A stretch of 64,000 bases of DNA from Sordariomycetes sp. S80-01Y (Eukaryota; Ascomycota; Sordariomycetes), in assembly GCA_037042185.1 (NCBI GenBank), contig JAXQJY010000029.1:62001-126000 (forward strand), in the 5' to 3' direction. This document shows, piece after piece, positions 36,202-42,989 of this stretch; the first letter of the stretch is position 1; each line of letters opens with the position of its first letter. The position numbers and the translations under genes are program-made. The notes below the pieces were generated by a model. That model was not told where the DNA came from, did not search any database, and saw nothing but the letters and a program-made list of their open reading frames with translations.

Positions 36202-38611
36202 ATGAGACGACAGGGTGCGGCGGCCCTAACGCTCGTCTTCTCATCGTTCGCTGCGCAGTCCTTTGCCGCTGACGATCCTCATCGGTTCTGCTTCCCAGCC
36301 TGCCAGAATGCCGTGGCCGCAGTACGCTTCGAGGCACGCGAAAACATCACAGATCCGACCTTGAAGCAGTGTGTTGGGTACCTGCGGTTGCAGAGCTTGT
36401 ATCTCTGTGCGGACACGCGGTGTGGCCGTCAGCGCCGCGATGCTGGCTTGAGCAGCCTAAATGAAACTTGCACAGGTCTCGGGGTACCGATCCCAGGGTT
36501 TGAAATCGTGGAGGAGTATGGGCGGGAAGACGTAGAGAAGCTCGAGAGGTTCAATGCGACGAGTCCCGGAAAAGACGTCGCGTTGACACAACCAGCTCTA
36601 CCCACCAAGGCCTTCCTCGACCTGTGGATGGGCACTCTCGTGCGTCTTCTCTCGATGGTATTGATGAAAATATTGACGTTTCTCTAGGAAGCTTCGGATT
36701 ACGTGAGGCGTCATCATTCGTCTTATGGCTGGCTCATGGGCTACTACTGGGCTGCCGTCGTTGCCGTTGGCATGCTTATGCGCTCCATGTCCTACCTTGA
36801 GACGCGGAGGAAGCACCTATCTTCGAGAGACTCGAAAGCCTGGACCTGGTTCAGAGCCAATCTTGCCACACCGGCAACTCTCGGGCGCCGGTGTGCACAA
36901 GACTATGGCAGCTGGGCTACCGTGCCGCCTTTGGTGCAATCCATTACCATCGGCCTGTTTGCTGCGCTTAACGTCTATTGCAGTTTATCCGGATACCGAT
37001 TACTTCCCGGAAACATCTAGTCAGTCTGTTTCGGGCACTTGCGAGGCGAGTTTCACTAACCGTATTAGTTACCCCGAGATATCCAAGCAGATTCTGCGCC
37101 ATGTGTCGGACCGAACGGGCATCATCTCGTTTGCCAACTTTCCCCTCATTTGGCTCTTTGGAATGAGGAATAACGTCGTTTTGTGGGTGACATGCTGGGA
37201 CTTTGGAACATTCAACAACTTCCACCGGTGGATTGCCCGCATAGCAACTCTACAGGCTGTGATACACTCAATCGGCTACACCTGGCTTATCCTAGAACGT
37301 AAGTCCGACGTGCGGATGCAAGGATATGAACGTTACTGACCCTGATCAGAGGGAGGCTGGAGCTACTTTGCTTGGTGGTGGACGCTGCTCTTCTGGTGGG
37401 CTGGTGAGCTGGTGAGTTGTCTCTTACACAGGAAGTTTGGGATGAAGCTGACGCCCCAGGCCACGATATTCATGTGCGCGGTACTTGGCTTTTCGTTCTA
37501 TTGGTTCCGCAGGAGCCAATACGAGCTCTTCCTGTTCGTTCATATTGGGCTGTCACTGCTCGTCTTAGTCACAATGCTTGGGTAAGTTGCCCCTTTCCTG
37601 AGAGCCCAGGTAGTCACGTAGCTCACGCAAGCAAGGCACGTCTCGATTTTCAACGGCGAGTATGACGCGTTGGTCTGGGTTCCCGTCATTATCTGGGCGG
37701 CAGATCGTGTGATCAGAGCTGCAAGAGTTGTTGCCTTCAATCGGAAGTTCTGGACGGTACACGGCCAAGCGACTTTCGACCCTGCATCAAACATGGTCCG
37801 TCTGGAGGTGTCCACGGCGGCGAGCATGTATCGGGTCAGGCCCGGGACGTTCTTCTACCTGATGACACTCGACGACACCGCGTTCTGGGAAAGTCACCCG
37901 TTCACGGTGGCCTCCGTTTCAACCTCTGGGAGAGACGAGGACTACTTGGGGGAAGCTTCGCCTCTGCTCGAAGCTAGCGATGCCTCGGATGTCCGTCCGA
38001 AGCGGATGACTATGTCCGAGTCCATGACATTCCTTATCCGGCCTTACAATAGCTTCACGTCTCGTCTCAGAGACCGCGCAGAGGCGCACTGGCCGAAACC
38101 AGCCCATGTGCGCATGGCCGTCGATGGTCCTTACGGTCGAACACTGGCACTAGACCTCTTCTCTCGCGTCGTCTTCGTGGTCGGTGGAAGTGGAATTGTC
38201 GTGGCACTCTCATACATACGCGTGCTGTTGGACTCTTCGCAATGCCAAAACATAGACATCCATTGGTCGGTGAGGGAGCCCGCTTTAGCCAGGGAGATCA
38301 TTCAAAGGGATTTGAGAGAAGCCTTAGGCCACGAGAAGGTATCTTTGAACTTCTACATGACAGGCGCCGACGACAGAGCCGAGAGCGAAGCGAGCGCAGA
38401 CGTGGTTTGGCACTGGCAGCGGATGAATCCAACTGCCCTGATCGAAGCAACGACAACACCAGGTGCATCCAGCAGTCAGCCATCGCTGGCCATCGTAGCA
38501 TGCGGCCCAGCTAAGACGGCTGACGAGACAAGGTGTGCGAGCGTAGCGGCAATGCGTCGTGCTGAGTCTGGGACGCGCGTTGAGTACTTTGAAGAAAGTT
38601 TTCAGTGGTGA
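36202..38611 (+). CDS. Ferric/cupric reductase, FRE family (NOX-like)
   Basis: 719-residue plasma-membrane reductase from exons 36202-36639, 36688-37019, 37069-37298, 37350-37411, 37460-37581 and 37636-38611. A signal peptide and a Cys-containing extracellular domain (about 25-145) are followed by the ferric reductase membrane domain. Paired haem-ligand histidines are in FNNFHRWIARIATLQAVIHS and FVHIGLSLLVLVTMLGH. The FAD site is ESHPFTVASV. The NAD(P)H site starts at VVFVVGGSGIVVALSYI. It moves electrons from cytosolic NADPH through FAD and two haems to extracellular Fe(III) or Cu(II), feeding metal uptake. Exon 4 is only 62 bp. The first intron donor (GTGCGT) is acceptable. Confidence 0.92.
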
Positions 38612-39026: not shown

Positions 39027-39836
39027 ATGAACTCCACCTCTCCTAGACCTTTGAACTCCCTCTCCGCTCTTGCTGGGGAGTTTAGTATCCCGAGGGGGCT
39101 CTTCTGGACGATCTCGGCATTCCTATTCCTCTCGCCCCTGACCTGGAAGGCCGTTTCCGGGAAGACTCGATACTCCTACATCCGCCATCTTCCTCACATC
39201 ATCCTCCTTTCTCACGTGGTATCAGGTTTCGTTGAGATTCTGGCGTACTACGGCCCGTTCTATCGTTATGGAACTGCACCATCGCCGGACCGTCTCTTTT
39301 TAGCTACCTGTGTCTGCCATTCGCTGTCCAGCATCATCCTCAACGCGAGTACCTGGCGAGTCAAGGCCGGACAACATGACTTGGTGCGAGCGACATTCAA
39401 TGTCATGATACTACAGAGACTGTTGGCCGGCGGCATAGCGTACTACACCGGGTCGCTGGTGTGGCACAATGCCAGTGTGAAGCTCTTGAATTCATATATC
39501 TGGGCCCGGCTCATCGTCGTTTATCTGGCCAACTACATCACCGGCTTCCCGACCTACGGCTCACGATACACGGCAGGCATCGTTGGGGCTGAAATCATGG
39601 GGCTGTGGGAGGGGGACTACCCCCACGGTATGATCATGTACTTCGTACTCGGAAGCGCTTTCCTGTGGCTGGACAAGTGGTCCTCGGGAAAGGATCAGTA
39701 AGTGATCATGAATCGCTATTCATACTGTTAAGGTGCTAACGCTCGCAGCTTTGGAAAGTCAACGCTCCAACACTTGGGACTCGTAAGGCGTGACCATCTT
39801 GAGAGCGAAAAAGATGGGTATAAGAACAGTGAGTGA
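39027..39836 (+). CDS. Uncharacterised polytopic membrane protein
   Basis: 252-residue protein from exons 39027-39697 and 39749-39836 (GTAAGT donor, GCTAAC branch point). Roughly six hydrophobic stretches: GLFWTISAFLFLSPL, LPHIILLSHVVSGFVEIL, LFLATCVCHSLSSIIL, ILQRLLAGGIAYYTG, WARLIVVYLANYITG and MIMYFVLGSAFLWL. A soluble C-tail (GKSTLQHLGLVRRDHLESE) comes from exon 2. I do not recognise the family. The start codon has an excellent context (CCACCATGA). It converges with the repeat-protein gene, 305 bp apart. If exon 2 is not used, the protein ends just after the last helix. Confidence 0.72.
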
Positions 39837-40141: not shown

Positions 40142-41815
40142 CTACTGCTGGTGGTTCTGCATCTCCATCTCTTGCTGGAGGCGGAGGAGACCAGGGATCA
40201 GGGCACCGCCGAGAAGACCACCAGAGCCTCCAGAGCCGCCGGTAAGGCCGCCAGTGAGTCCACCAACAGCATCAGTGACACCGTCGAGCTGACGCTTCTG
40301 CATCTGGTTCTTCTCGTCCATCTCCTGCTGAAGGCGAAGAAGACCAGGGATGAGAGCACCGCCGAGAAGACCACCAGAGCCGCCGGAGCCACCAGTCAAA
40401 CCACCGGTCAAGCCACCAACGGCATCGGTGACACCGTCGAGCTGACGCTTCTGCATCTGGTTGTTGTGCTCCATCTCCTGCTGCATGCGGAGGATTCCAG
40501 GGATGATGGAACCGCCGAGAAGACCATCGCCGAGCTGACGCTTCTGGTGCTCGTGGTTTTGCATCTCCATCTCCTGCTGGAGGCGGAGGAGACCAGGGAT
40601 CAGGGCACCGCCGAGAAGACCACCAGAGCCTCCAGAGCCGCCGGTAAGGCCGCCAGTGAGTCCACCAACAGCATCAGTGACACCGTCGAGCTGACGCTTC
40701 TGCATCTGGTTGTTGTGCTCCATCTCTTGCTGCAGGCGGAGGATACCAGGGATGATGGAACCACCGAGGAGGCCATCGCCGAGCTGACGCTTCTGCATCT
40801 CAGCCTTCTCCTGCTCCTCGGCCATGCGGAGGAGTCCAGGGACGAGGCCACCACCGAGGAGACCACCCTTTCCGCCCTTGCCAGTGAGGCCACCAGTCAG
40901 GCCACCAGTGAGGCCACCAACAGTGTCACCAAGAGAGCCTGTGAGTCCTCCAACAGCGTCGGTAGCTCCGCCAACAGGGTCTCCGCCAGTGAGTCCGCCG
41001 GTCAGATCGCCAACAGCGCCAGTGACTCCGTCGAGAGCACCGCCAGCGGCGTCAGTAGCACCAGATGCAGCCCCCATAGCGGCATCGGTGGCACCAGAAG
41101 CAGCATCGGCCTGACGCTTGACGACACCAGGAACGAGGCCACCGCCCAGAAGACCGCCCTTTCCACCCTTGCCAGTGAGGCCACCAGTGAGGCCGCCAAC
41201 AGTGTCACCAAGAGAGCCTGTGAGTCCTCCAACAGCGTCCGTAACGCCGCCAAGGGGGTCTCCTCCGGTAAGTCCACCGGTCACGTCACCAACAGCACCA
41301 GTCACTCCATCGAGAGCGCCGCCAGCGGCGTCAGTCGCGCCACCAACAGCGCCCATGGCAGCATCAGTGGCACCATCAACGGCGCCCGTAGCAGCGTCGG
41401 TAGCACCAGATGCAGCGCCGGCCTGACGCTTCACGACTCCGGGAACGAGACCGCCGCCAAGAAGACCACCCTTTCCACCCTTACCGCCAGTAAGGCCGCC
41501 AGTGAGGCCACCCACGGTGTTACCAAGAGTATCCGTAAGACCGCCAACGGCATCGGTGGCGCCGCCAACAGGGTCTCCGCCAGTGAGTCCGCCGGTCAGG
41601 TCGCCAACGGCGCCAGTGACTCCGTCGAGAGCGCCGCCAGCGGCGTCAGTCGCACCACCAGCAGCACCCTTGGCGGCATCACCAGCCTTGCCCAGAGCAC
41701 CAGAGGCGGCGTCAGTGACCCCATCCAGCTGTCTCGCGGAGAGATCACCGGCGGGGAGCGCGAAGCCGCTGCCAGCGAGGCATGTGAGAATGACGGCTGT
41801 AAGTCCGAACTGCAT
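40142..41815 (-). CDS. Secreted Kex2-site repeat protein (KEP)
   Basis: Intronless 557-residue protein with signal peptide (residues 1-19, MQFGLTAVILTCLAGSGFA). The rest is Gly, Ala, Leu, Thr and Asp-rich, with no Cys, Trp, Tyr or Phe. Seven Lys-Arg sites (R130, R234, R343, R374, R426, R457, R508) are each followed by Gln. They divide it into eight units: three long (104-130 residues, with GATDA and GGLT repeats) and five short (31, 52, 31, 51, 49). Every unit carries a core LLGG-x-[LI]-[VI]-PG-hydrophobic-hydrophobic-[KR]; the short ones add a polar tail beginning LQQEM or MQQEM. The Golgi protease Kex2 would cut after KR and release a set of peptides. Known fungal relatives in design are repellent-type and RiPP precursors; function here unknown. 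TATA box about 95 bp upstream. Confidence 0.88.
   Translation of the reverse strand: MQFGLTAVILTCLAGSGFALPAGDLSARQLDGVTDAASGALGKAGDAAKGAAGGATDAAGGALDGVTGAVGDLTGGLTGGDPVGGATDAVGGLTDTLGNTVGGLTGGLTGGKGGKGGLLGGGLVPGVVKRQAGAASGATDAATGAVDGATDAAMGAVGGATDAAGGALDGVTGAVGDVTGGLTGGDPLGGVTDAVGGLTGSLGDTVGGLTGGLTGKGGKGGLLGGGLVPGVVKRQADAASGATDAAMGAASGATDAAGGALDGVTGAVGDLTGGLTGGDPVGGATDAVGGLTGSLGDTVGGLTGGLTGGLTGKGGKGGLLGGGLVPGLLRMAEEQEKAEMQKRQLGDGLLGGSIIPGILRLQQEMEHNNQMQKRQLDGVTDAVGGLTGGLTGGSGGSGGLLGGALIPGLLRLQQEMEMQNHEHQKRQLGDGLLGGSIIPGILRMQQEMEHNNQMQKRQLDGVTDAVGGLTGGLTGGSGGSGGLLGGALIPGLLRLQQEMDEKNQMQKRQLDGVTDAVGGLTGGLTGGSGGSGGLLGGALIPGLLRLQQEMEMQNHQQ
40145..40786 (-). repeat. Five short Kex2 repeat units (in-frame tandem repeats)
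   Basis: Units at 40786-40694, 40693-40538, 40537-40445, 40444-40292 and 40291-40145. The first and third are near-identical QLGDG-type units of 31 residues. The second, fourth and fifth are QLDGVTDAVGG-type units of 49-52 residues. High DNA identity suggests recent duplication or homogenisation. Confidence 0.85.
40787..41815 (-). repeat. Three long Ala/Gly/Thr repeat units
   Basis: Units at 41815-41426 (including signal peptide), 41425-41114 and 41113-40787. Each contains GATDA repeats, a GALDGVTGAVGD block, GGLTGGDP, TDAVGGLT and ends in GKGGKGGLLGGGLVPG. Internal GGLTGG microrepeats vary in number between units. Confidence 0.8.
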
Positions 41816-41910: not shown

Positions 41911-41917
41911 AACTTAT
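41911..41917 (-). promoter_or_regulatory. TATA box of the repeat-protein gene
   Basis: TATATAA on the minus strand, about 95-100 bp upstream of the start codon at 41815. Confidence 0.6.
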
Positions 41918-42989
41918 ATACATCGCATCCAAAGCGTCGGGAGGCTGCGAGGCCAGAGCGCCTGGAGAGCTGTCTCAGGGGTTGCTTCATCAACGACCAT
42001 TCTGACATGCTTCACGTCCAATAGTCAAGCGTGCGCTCCACGGGCTGTCGGTGGGCAGCTCACCCAGGAATTCTCCAGCCCGAAGTGGGCGATCATGACT
42101 ATCATCAAGGGGCAGGAATTCCTCGCAAGGAGCTGAGATCGGGCCAAACTGTAGCCAGGGGTTCAACATTTCCATGCGACTGACAGTTGGGGCCCAAATC
42201 GAACACATTCCACGGCGCCAAGTCTGGGGTGCATTTGACTCCTACAATGGCTGCAGGAATGGACGGCGGATGTAGAGGGATTACCTACACAGGCTTCCCG
42301 GGCACATATCGCCTGCGGGTCTCTCCCTTGGGGGCTGGATGACATGCTTCGAAGACATCACATCCGAGACATGTCATGAGCGCCACACGGCGAGGGGAGC
42401 TCCCTCTGGTATGCCATCCCTGGCTCTACCGAGATGAGACCGATCGACAGCCACTGTCTCAGCAGCGAGGAAGCAACTGAAGTTGGGGGAAATTTCTTCA
42501 TTTCCAAGACCGTTCGGCGAGGCCTTGAACGGAGACTTTGTGGACGTGAGGAGACGAGGAGCCTGAAGGGATACCGAATATACTACCTAGTCCTACTTTG
42601 CCGGGTATTGGGTTAAGCGAGCTACCCTTGTAGCAGATATTCTGGACCTCATTCTCAATTTGCGTCATCTATACAGCATCTCGAATTGGCTCAATATCTT
42701 AGCGTCCCACACGCGACGATGTAAAGCGATGCGATTGCTCGCGTCTGTTGGTGGCTTTAATTGCCGGCGTCGTGCCCAGAAGCTCGACGCCTTTCTCCAA
42801 ACTAAACTCGATGTCGTCAACGACCACAGGACCCGCTCTCTCTCTCCTCTGGATCCATGGTCTTGGTCAAATTACAGCCCTTTCGCTCTGTAGTCTAGTC
42901 TAGTCTCTCCCTGGGAATCCCATCCACCCTAATTATCTTAGCTACTCCAGTTACCGCTTCACCGCATTCCCCAGCACATCCTGTCGATC
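41918..42989. other. Divergent intergenic region
   Basis: About 1.1 kb between the repeat-protein gene and the MDR gene. Contains a TAGTC microrepeat at 42891-42905 and pyrimidine-rich stretches just before the MDR start. No coding frame recognised. Confidence 0.5.

Follow-up and report, generated by a model that had tools for sequence, protein, structure and literature searches.

A Gln-first repeat precursor with seven Lys-Arg sites in a Sordariomycete fungus, and a possible surface role for its peptides

A long open reading frame, here called KEP1, in a 64,000-nucleotide stretch of DNA from Sordariomycetes sp. S80-01Y (hereafter the window) raises two linked questions. Does it encode a precursor that is cut into a series of related peptides and, if so, what might such peptides do for the fungus? 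An earlier sequence-only reading had placed the frame, listed seven Lys-Arg (KR) sites and divided the product into three long and five short related units. These observations are borne out here, as each of the seven positions is that of the Arg in a KR pair (129-130, 233-234, 342-343, 373-374, 425-426, 456-457 and 507-508), and the unit boundaries coincide with a shared opening sequence described below. KR is the sole dibasic pair in the protein, which has no RR, KK or RK, and Gln directly follows all seven pairs. The N-terminal sequence, MQFGLTAVILTCLAGSGFA-LPAGDLSAR-Q (hyphens here and below mark putative cuts), has a hydrophobic start by Kyte-Doolittle hydropathy, and QLDGVTDAA comes directly after its single Arg, R28, such that unit 1 also begins with Gln and is in register with the others. 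The coordinates of these features, and of a second gene discussed below, are collected in Table 1.

Table 1. Features of KEP1 (positions in the window) and of the second gene, KEP2
Feature	Position	Strand	Remarks
KEP1, whole coding sequence	40142..41815	-	557 aa + stop, ATG to TAG, no internal stop
KEP1 signal peptide-like residues 1-19 (MQFGLTAVILTCLAGSGFA)	41759..41815	-	from hydropathy profile; putative cleavage site, -3/-1 rule by eye
KEP1 short pro-segment, residues 20-28, ending in single Arg (LSAR-Q)	41732..41758	-	putative cleavage at its end
KEP1 long unit 1, residues 29-130, ending in VPGVVKR	41426..41731	-	102 aa with KR
KEP1 long unit 2, residues 131-234, ending in VPGVVKR	41114..41425	-	104 aa with KR
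KEP1 long unit 3, residues 235-343, with hydrophilic tail like that of short units	40787..41113	-	109 aa with KR
KEP1 short unit 4 (type A), residues 344-374	40694..40786	-	31 aa with KR
KEP1 short unit 5 (type B), residues 375-426	40538..40693	-	52 aa with KR
KEP1 short unit 6 (type A), residues 427-457	40445..40537	-	31 aa with KR
KEP1 short unit 7 (type B), residues 458-508	40292..40444	-	51 aa with KR
KEP1 short unit 8 (type B), residues 509-557, at the C-terminus and not followed by KR	40145..40291	-	49 aa
249-bp tandem repeat (TRF; 1.9 copies at 89% matches), made up of an A and a B unit	40317..40795	-	
TATATA box-like site, 105 bases 5' of the KEP1 ATG	41915..41920	-	consensus only
KEP2	C12:1774842-1778969 (= L044:1343-5467)	+	1375-aa open frame, secreted-looking, Gly/Ser-rich

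The eight units are arranged in the order long, long, long, A, B, A, B, B, and without KR the long units measure 100, 102 and 107 aa and the short ones 29-50 aa. Every unit opens with Gln and contains the string GLLGGxxxPG; Gln 1, GLLGG and PG are invariant. The long units are built from stretches of GATDAA type and GGLTGG type, with KGGKGGLLGGGLVPG close to their ends. The A units (31 aa) read QLGDGLLGGSIIPGILR(L/M)QQEMEHNNQMQKR, and in the B units (49-52 aa) GGLLGGALIPGLLRLQQEM is preceded by a linker of Gly and Thr. Unit 3 is a hybrid that joins a long body to a tail of the short-unit type, and a hydrophilic C-terminal tail is therefore found in six of the eight units, being absent from long units 1 and 2. 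Identity between unit 5 and the four other short units ranges from 65 to 96%. The only Cys in the protein is located in the signal peptide, the eight-cysteine pattern of hydrophobins is absent, and no Tyr, Trp, Phe or Cys occurs after residue 28; given this composition, the released peptides are expected to be linear.

As judged from its sequence, KEP1 is a KEX2-processed repeat protein (KEP) by the published criteria for this class, which was surveyed in 2019 (Le Marquer, PMC6339444) and again in 2020 (Umemura, PMC7329392). What it shares with other KEPs is a start that resembles a signal peptide, three or more similar repeats set apart by KR sites and the lack of a Pfam domain above cut-off. 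Eight similar fragments lie between its KR/RR/KK sites, where at least three of at least 8 aa define the class, and the repeats make up 26% of the protein (29 aa x 5 of 557), compared to the 15% minimum given in PMC6339444. Two of the three long units exceed the 100-aa repeat limit given in PMC7329392, and therefore the Umemura pipeline might have skipped this gene. KEP1 differs from the class in that it mixes two unit size classes within one protein, and none of the motifs quoted for KEPs (DADAATXYV, YVW, SPPHKT, QKLKVD and XSDW) was seen in it by eye. The 2020 survey counts 7878 members as 838 types plus 2560 without a homolog (PMC7329392), and the functions of KEPs are described as mostly unknown in PMC9769878.

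The proposal that no named family fits this sequence thus holds for the peptide, which has no Pfam, NCBIfam or PDB match above cut-off, but not for the architecture, which is that of the published KEP class (PMC6339444, PMC7329392 and PMC9769878). Likewise, the idea of an undescribed secreted peptide system has to give way with respect to its kind, whereas the KEP1 sequence type is without assignment here. The few rows obtained were taken as chance: DUF4899 in Pfam (12.6 bits where the cut-off is 25, E 0.076), the Ag473 lipoprotein in NCBIfam (19.4 bits where the cut-off is 100) and three viral glycoprotein chains, the sole PDB rows, with E values no better than 0.16. Six KEP1 peptide strings gave no match in a literature search of main text, figures and supplements lying outside it, and KEP1 may already be an entry in the supplements of the KEP surveys. 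The system is accordingly not categorically new, and it is the peptide that looks undescribed. As just another orphan KEP, this gene would be ordinary. Its advantage over other KEPs is a probable paralogue in the same genome that places the unit in a different protein context, together with constraint on the units themselves, and for these reasons a role in surface material becomes directly testable.

Chance is a poor source for the KR pairs. In 20,000 composition shuffles of residues 29-557, KR arose 0.41 times on average and four times at most, versus the seven pairs observed. Among the 94 ATG-initiated ORFs that reach 100 aa across the six frames of the window, the runner-up has three KR pairs, each followed by a different residue. 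However, the seven sites are not seven independent events because they were partly copied by unit duplication, and therefore a comparison of synonymous and nonsynonymous differences weighs more than the shuffles. Seven whole-unit comparisons were made within class only (B/B, A/A and long/long, the A/B and short/long pairs being left out), using basic counts of the Nei-Gojobori type, uncorrected for codon bias, on stretches that are short and of low complexity. Synonymous versus nonsynonymous differences per site were 0.45 versus 0.088 for B5/B7, 0.47 versus 0.083 for B7/B8, 0.25 versus 0.014 for A4/A6, 0.38 versus 0.064 for L3/L2, 0.44 versus 0.069 for L3/L1, 0.52 versus 0.101 for L2/L1 and 0.05 versus 0.019 for B5/B8, a pair that is little informative on constraint because it is a recent copy. 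Thus, in six of the seven comparisons, 25-52% of synonymous sites differ and only 1.4-10% of nonsynonymous ones, which points to selection on the amino-acid sequence. When the variable tail ends are excluded, the nonsynonymous value for B5/B7 falls from 0.088 to 0.033, and B7/B8 likewise gives 0.033. By these tallies, what selection maintains is the protein sequence of the units, least so in the tail ends, which are the least conserved part of the short units.

The genome also holds candidates for part of the machinery that would act on such a precursor. A single P_proprotein match, on contig C10 at 104 bits, corresponds to a kexin with subtilisin-like and membrane-spanning parts by eye. The core of the sequence-only reading, a secreted precursor of several peptides that Kex2 would process, is well supported at the level of sequence by this single kexin match, the conserved units and the Gln after seven of seven KR pairs, and we consider it very probable that KEP1 is indeed cleaved at its KR sites. 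Peptidase M28 matches occupy 22 stretches of the genome, and the DGEE motif, which is typical of glutaminyl cyclases, was sought in 20 of them. When one DGEE-bearing frame, on C10, was compared with the PDB, 29 of 35 rows were named glutaminyl cyclase or cyclotransferase, with a top row named 'peptide hydrolase'; the gene is described here as glutaminyl cyclase-like. Gln-first KEP peptides of Coprinopsis were found as pyro-Glu forms, according to PMC9769878. However, PMC5241404 places the glutaminyl cyclases of Neurospora in the ER, ahead of Kex2, which speaks against pyro-Glu formation on the KEP1 peptides. The same genome encodes an alpha-pheromone precursor built on this Kex2 logic, with 11 copies of WCERPGQSCW between KR sites (C15:582500-585500; L016, L046). 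This precursor additionally carries one WCERPGQPCF variant and Ste13-type dipeptides, and the WCERPGQSCW core had no literature match in a search with three pheromone strings.

A search of the source genome (30.9 Mb, 16 contigs) with the KEP1 protein yielded one credible match besides KEP1 itself, at E 1.1e-6. This is KEP2, which is located on the same contig at a distance of 1.67 Mb. Two further rows were set aside: a match on C16 (E 0.057) is a Gly run in what appears by eye to be an ABC transporter, and a fourth row (E 2.5) is the opposite strand of KEP1. The KEP2 protein starts with the secretion signal-like MKGDTSAFLLLASLLGSTLAAPTG, followed by KR36-Q, a single-Arg TR64-Q and QLEAVRSIVERSSGGSSGGLLGGALIPGLLRAAQIEAEREHIQ-KR109-QSFSF, downstream of which extend 1,266 Gly/Ser-rich residues that form a silk-like repeat region. 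It contains no Cys and no Trp and has no Pfam match at E 0.01. In the reverse direction, a 35-aa KEP2 query leads back to six KEP1 units out of eight: four have E values of at most 8.4e-5, with 1.9e-6 for the best, and two are near 0.009. A 14-residue core is identical in KEP2 and in units B5, B7 and B8, with 5, 3 and 5 silent differences, respectively, and no replacements. Taken together, the two proteins have Gln after nine of nine KR pairs, the KEP2 contexts being LKRQI and QKRQS.

The match between the two genes is short and Gly-rich, and its score of 94 was reached by none of 2,000 sequences in each of four dipeptide shuffle sets, the maxima of which were 86, 85, 86 and 93; the approach of one set to within a point is due to Gly bias. 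Alignment-based scans led to phage tail-like proteins (by eye) in one of 33 bacterial and three of 68 viral candidate stretches. These proteins, from Sinorhizobium and IMG/VR contigs (L054-L057), carry RSGGLLGGAIIPGIL, which is close to the KEP core. They were rejected as relatives of KEP1, as they have no KR-Q frame, and convergence of a Gly-rich hydrophobic turn is the most likely explanation. Given that the core string recurs in very large collections, the link to KEP2 is somewhat weaker than its score suggests, yet it stands because of the additional KR-Q context, the secretion signal-like start and the small search space. We therefore regard KEP2 as a probable paralogue that carries one probable copy of the KEP1 unit, closed by KR-Q.

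The surroundings of KEP1 were also inspected. The window holds 28 ORFs of at least 200 aa, and the Pfam scan covered KEP1 and nine others: a sugar transporter, two ferric reductase pieces, a zinc-type dehydrogenase, a P450, a berberine-type oxidase, a rhamnogalacturonan lyase and two without a match. By these assignments, the nine scanned ORFs do not look like a peptide-maturation cluster. Adjoining KEP1 on the forward strand (39027-39701) is a 224-aa protein that is hydrophobic by eye and has no Pfam match at E 0.01. The ferric reductase-type oxidase (36725-38611, forward strand) is distributed over two ORFs, one transmembrane and one FAD/NAD-binding, and is probably split by introns. Elsewhere in the genome, class II hydrophobin matches were found at four places, and hence there is no hydrophobin gap to fill; a search for class I hydrophobins, run without a positive control, gave none.

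With these observations in mind, we propose that KEP1 enters the secretory pathway, where Golgi kexin would cut behind each KR, making seven cuts, and a Kex1-type carboxypeptidase would presumably trim the KR from the released units. Eight linear, Gln-first peptides would then be secreted, perhaps with cyclisation of the Gln. In six of the eight, a hydrophobic, Gly-rich core (GLLGG..(I/V)PG) is combined with the hydrophilic C-terminal tail, and such peptides could act as head-and-tail amphiphiles. They may serve as structural, surface-active peptides at the hyphal wall or air-water interface in the manner of the Rep1 repellents of Ustilago, while the single unit copy in KEP2 would tie the peptide to a large, Gly/Ser-rich secreted protein. 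The overall reading, that KEP1 is a source of Kex2-released linear peptides that are structural and surface-active at the wall or air-water interface, seems to us about evenly balanced between right and wrong. The specifically Rep1-like surface role, argued by analogy, is our best guess and a tentative one.

The physical evidence on this role is mixed. Head-tail polarity is visible by eye in the units, but facial amphipathicity was not found in the C-terminal segments: in all five segments tested, the fraction of shuffles with a hydrophobic moment at or above that observed was 0.20-0.80. A structure model of unit 5 predicts a helix at 31-51 (pLDDT 73 for 31-40 and 78 for 41-50) preceded by a loose linker, within a model that is weak overall (mean 59.7), and a model of the whole protein is uninformative (mean pLDDT 52.5). 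We also count against a surface role the hydrophobin matches given above, the missing hydrophilic tail of long units 1 and 2, the weaker conservation of the short-unit tails and the finding in PMC9769878 that six kep deletions in Coprinopsis had no phenotype. A bolder version holds that KEP1, by flooding the cell surface with its short peptide, and KEP2, with its one unit copy and silk-like Gly/Ser chain, form a coupled system. The free peptides and the long chain would co-assemble into a new kind of surface or matrix material, belonging neither to the hydrophobins nor to the repellents; we consider this version improbable.

The main rival to a structural role is that the linear peptides serve as signals or affect other organisms in a hormone-like, antimicrobial or effector-like manner. 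The conservation of unit sequences is compatible with this view, as are the signalling, effector and cytolytic roles recorded for linear KEP peptides (PMC7329392) and the signal peptide and seven KR motifs of Candida Ece1p (PMC5784256). Against it, the short units at 29-50 aa are long relative to alpha-type signals of 9-24 aa (PMC6339444). Moreover, the XA/XP dipeptide run expected of Ste13 processing is absent, since QA follows two of the seven KR pairs and QL the other five, so that KEP1 does not conform to an alpha-pheromone precursor in this respect. Gly-rich, low-complexity units would also fit a structural use better, and on balance we judge the signalling or effector role rather unlikely. 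A second possibility draws on KEP2, whose unit is positioned between TR64-Q and KR109-Q, ahead of the 1,266-aa chain. The unit could be a propeptide or chaperone-like element that keeps Gly-rich, aggregation-prone chains soluble in transit, in which case KEP1 would be an expanded form and the real product would be its long units or the Gly/Ser chain of KEP2. Five KEP1 short units have no long partner behind them, however, and we hold this account to be quite improbable.

Still less probable is that KEP1 is an unprocessed, Gly/Ala/Thr-rich structural wall protein in which the KR pairs are incidental to the repeat. Its sequence complexity is very low, and repeats copy whatever they contain, but KR-Q is kept across differing contexts (VVKRQA, MQKRQL and HQKRQL in KEP1, where the adjoining tail residues vary, and those of KEP2 given above), and the shuffles argue in the same direction. 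Strongly disfavoured, finally, is a precursor of a cyclised, dikaritin-type RiPP: ustiloxin precursors do combine a signal peptide with KR repeats (PMC7329392), but the RiPP idea of the sequence-only reading is not supported in its best-known ascomycete form, UstYa cyclisation, as mature KEP1 is devoid of Tyr, Trp, Phe and Cys and the three stretches matching UstYa (DUF3328) are on C2 and C15, with no match on C12, the contig of KEP1, compared with the 22% of published KEPs that have UstYa nearby, at 3.09 genes on average (PMC7329392).

Returning to linear, surface-active peptides as the preferred reading, we can place KEP1 among known systems. Ascomycete alpha-pheromone precursors share the Kex2 logic, but KEP1 has neither a pheromone core nor the Ste13 dipeptide run, and its mature chain is free of Cys and Trp. 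Ece1p of Candida albicans (PMC5784256) is likewise a secreted precursor with a signal peptide and seven KR motifs; it differs in having 271 aa and one unit that is a cell-damaging peptide, and we claim likeness in layout alone. Neither candidalysin-like nor Ece1-like proteins, combined with filamentous fungi and Kex2, appeared among the literature matches listed. Two further parallels are proteins of Ustilago maydis, both described in PMC4617103, and here the likeness of KEP1 to Rep1 and of KEP2 to Hum3 is one of architecture. Rep1 has twelve repeats of 34-55 aa in a total of 652 aa; its cleavage by Kex2 yields ten peptides with lengths of 35-53 aa and a further one of 228 aa, and these form surface fibrils. 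Like KEP1 (557 aa), it is secreted and mixes short and longer Kex2 units, the short ones being of similar size (29-50 aa in KEP1 versus 35-53 aa). Unlike KEP1, it is a basidiomycete protein, and its units are called amphipathic, whereas the KEP1 segments are not facially so. Hum3 resembles KEP2 in that Kex2-bounded units stand ahead of a large surface protein; in Hum3, seventeen repeats are joined to a C-terminal hydrophobin domain, whereas in KEP2 one unit is joined to a Cys-free Gly/Ser chain.
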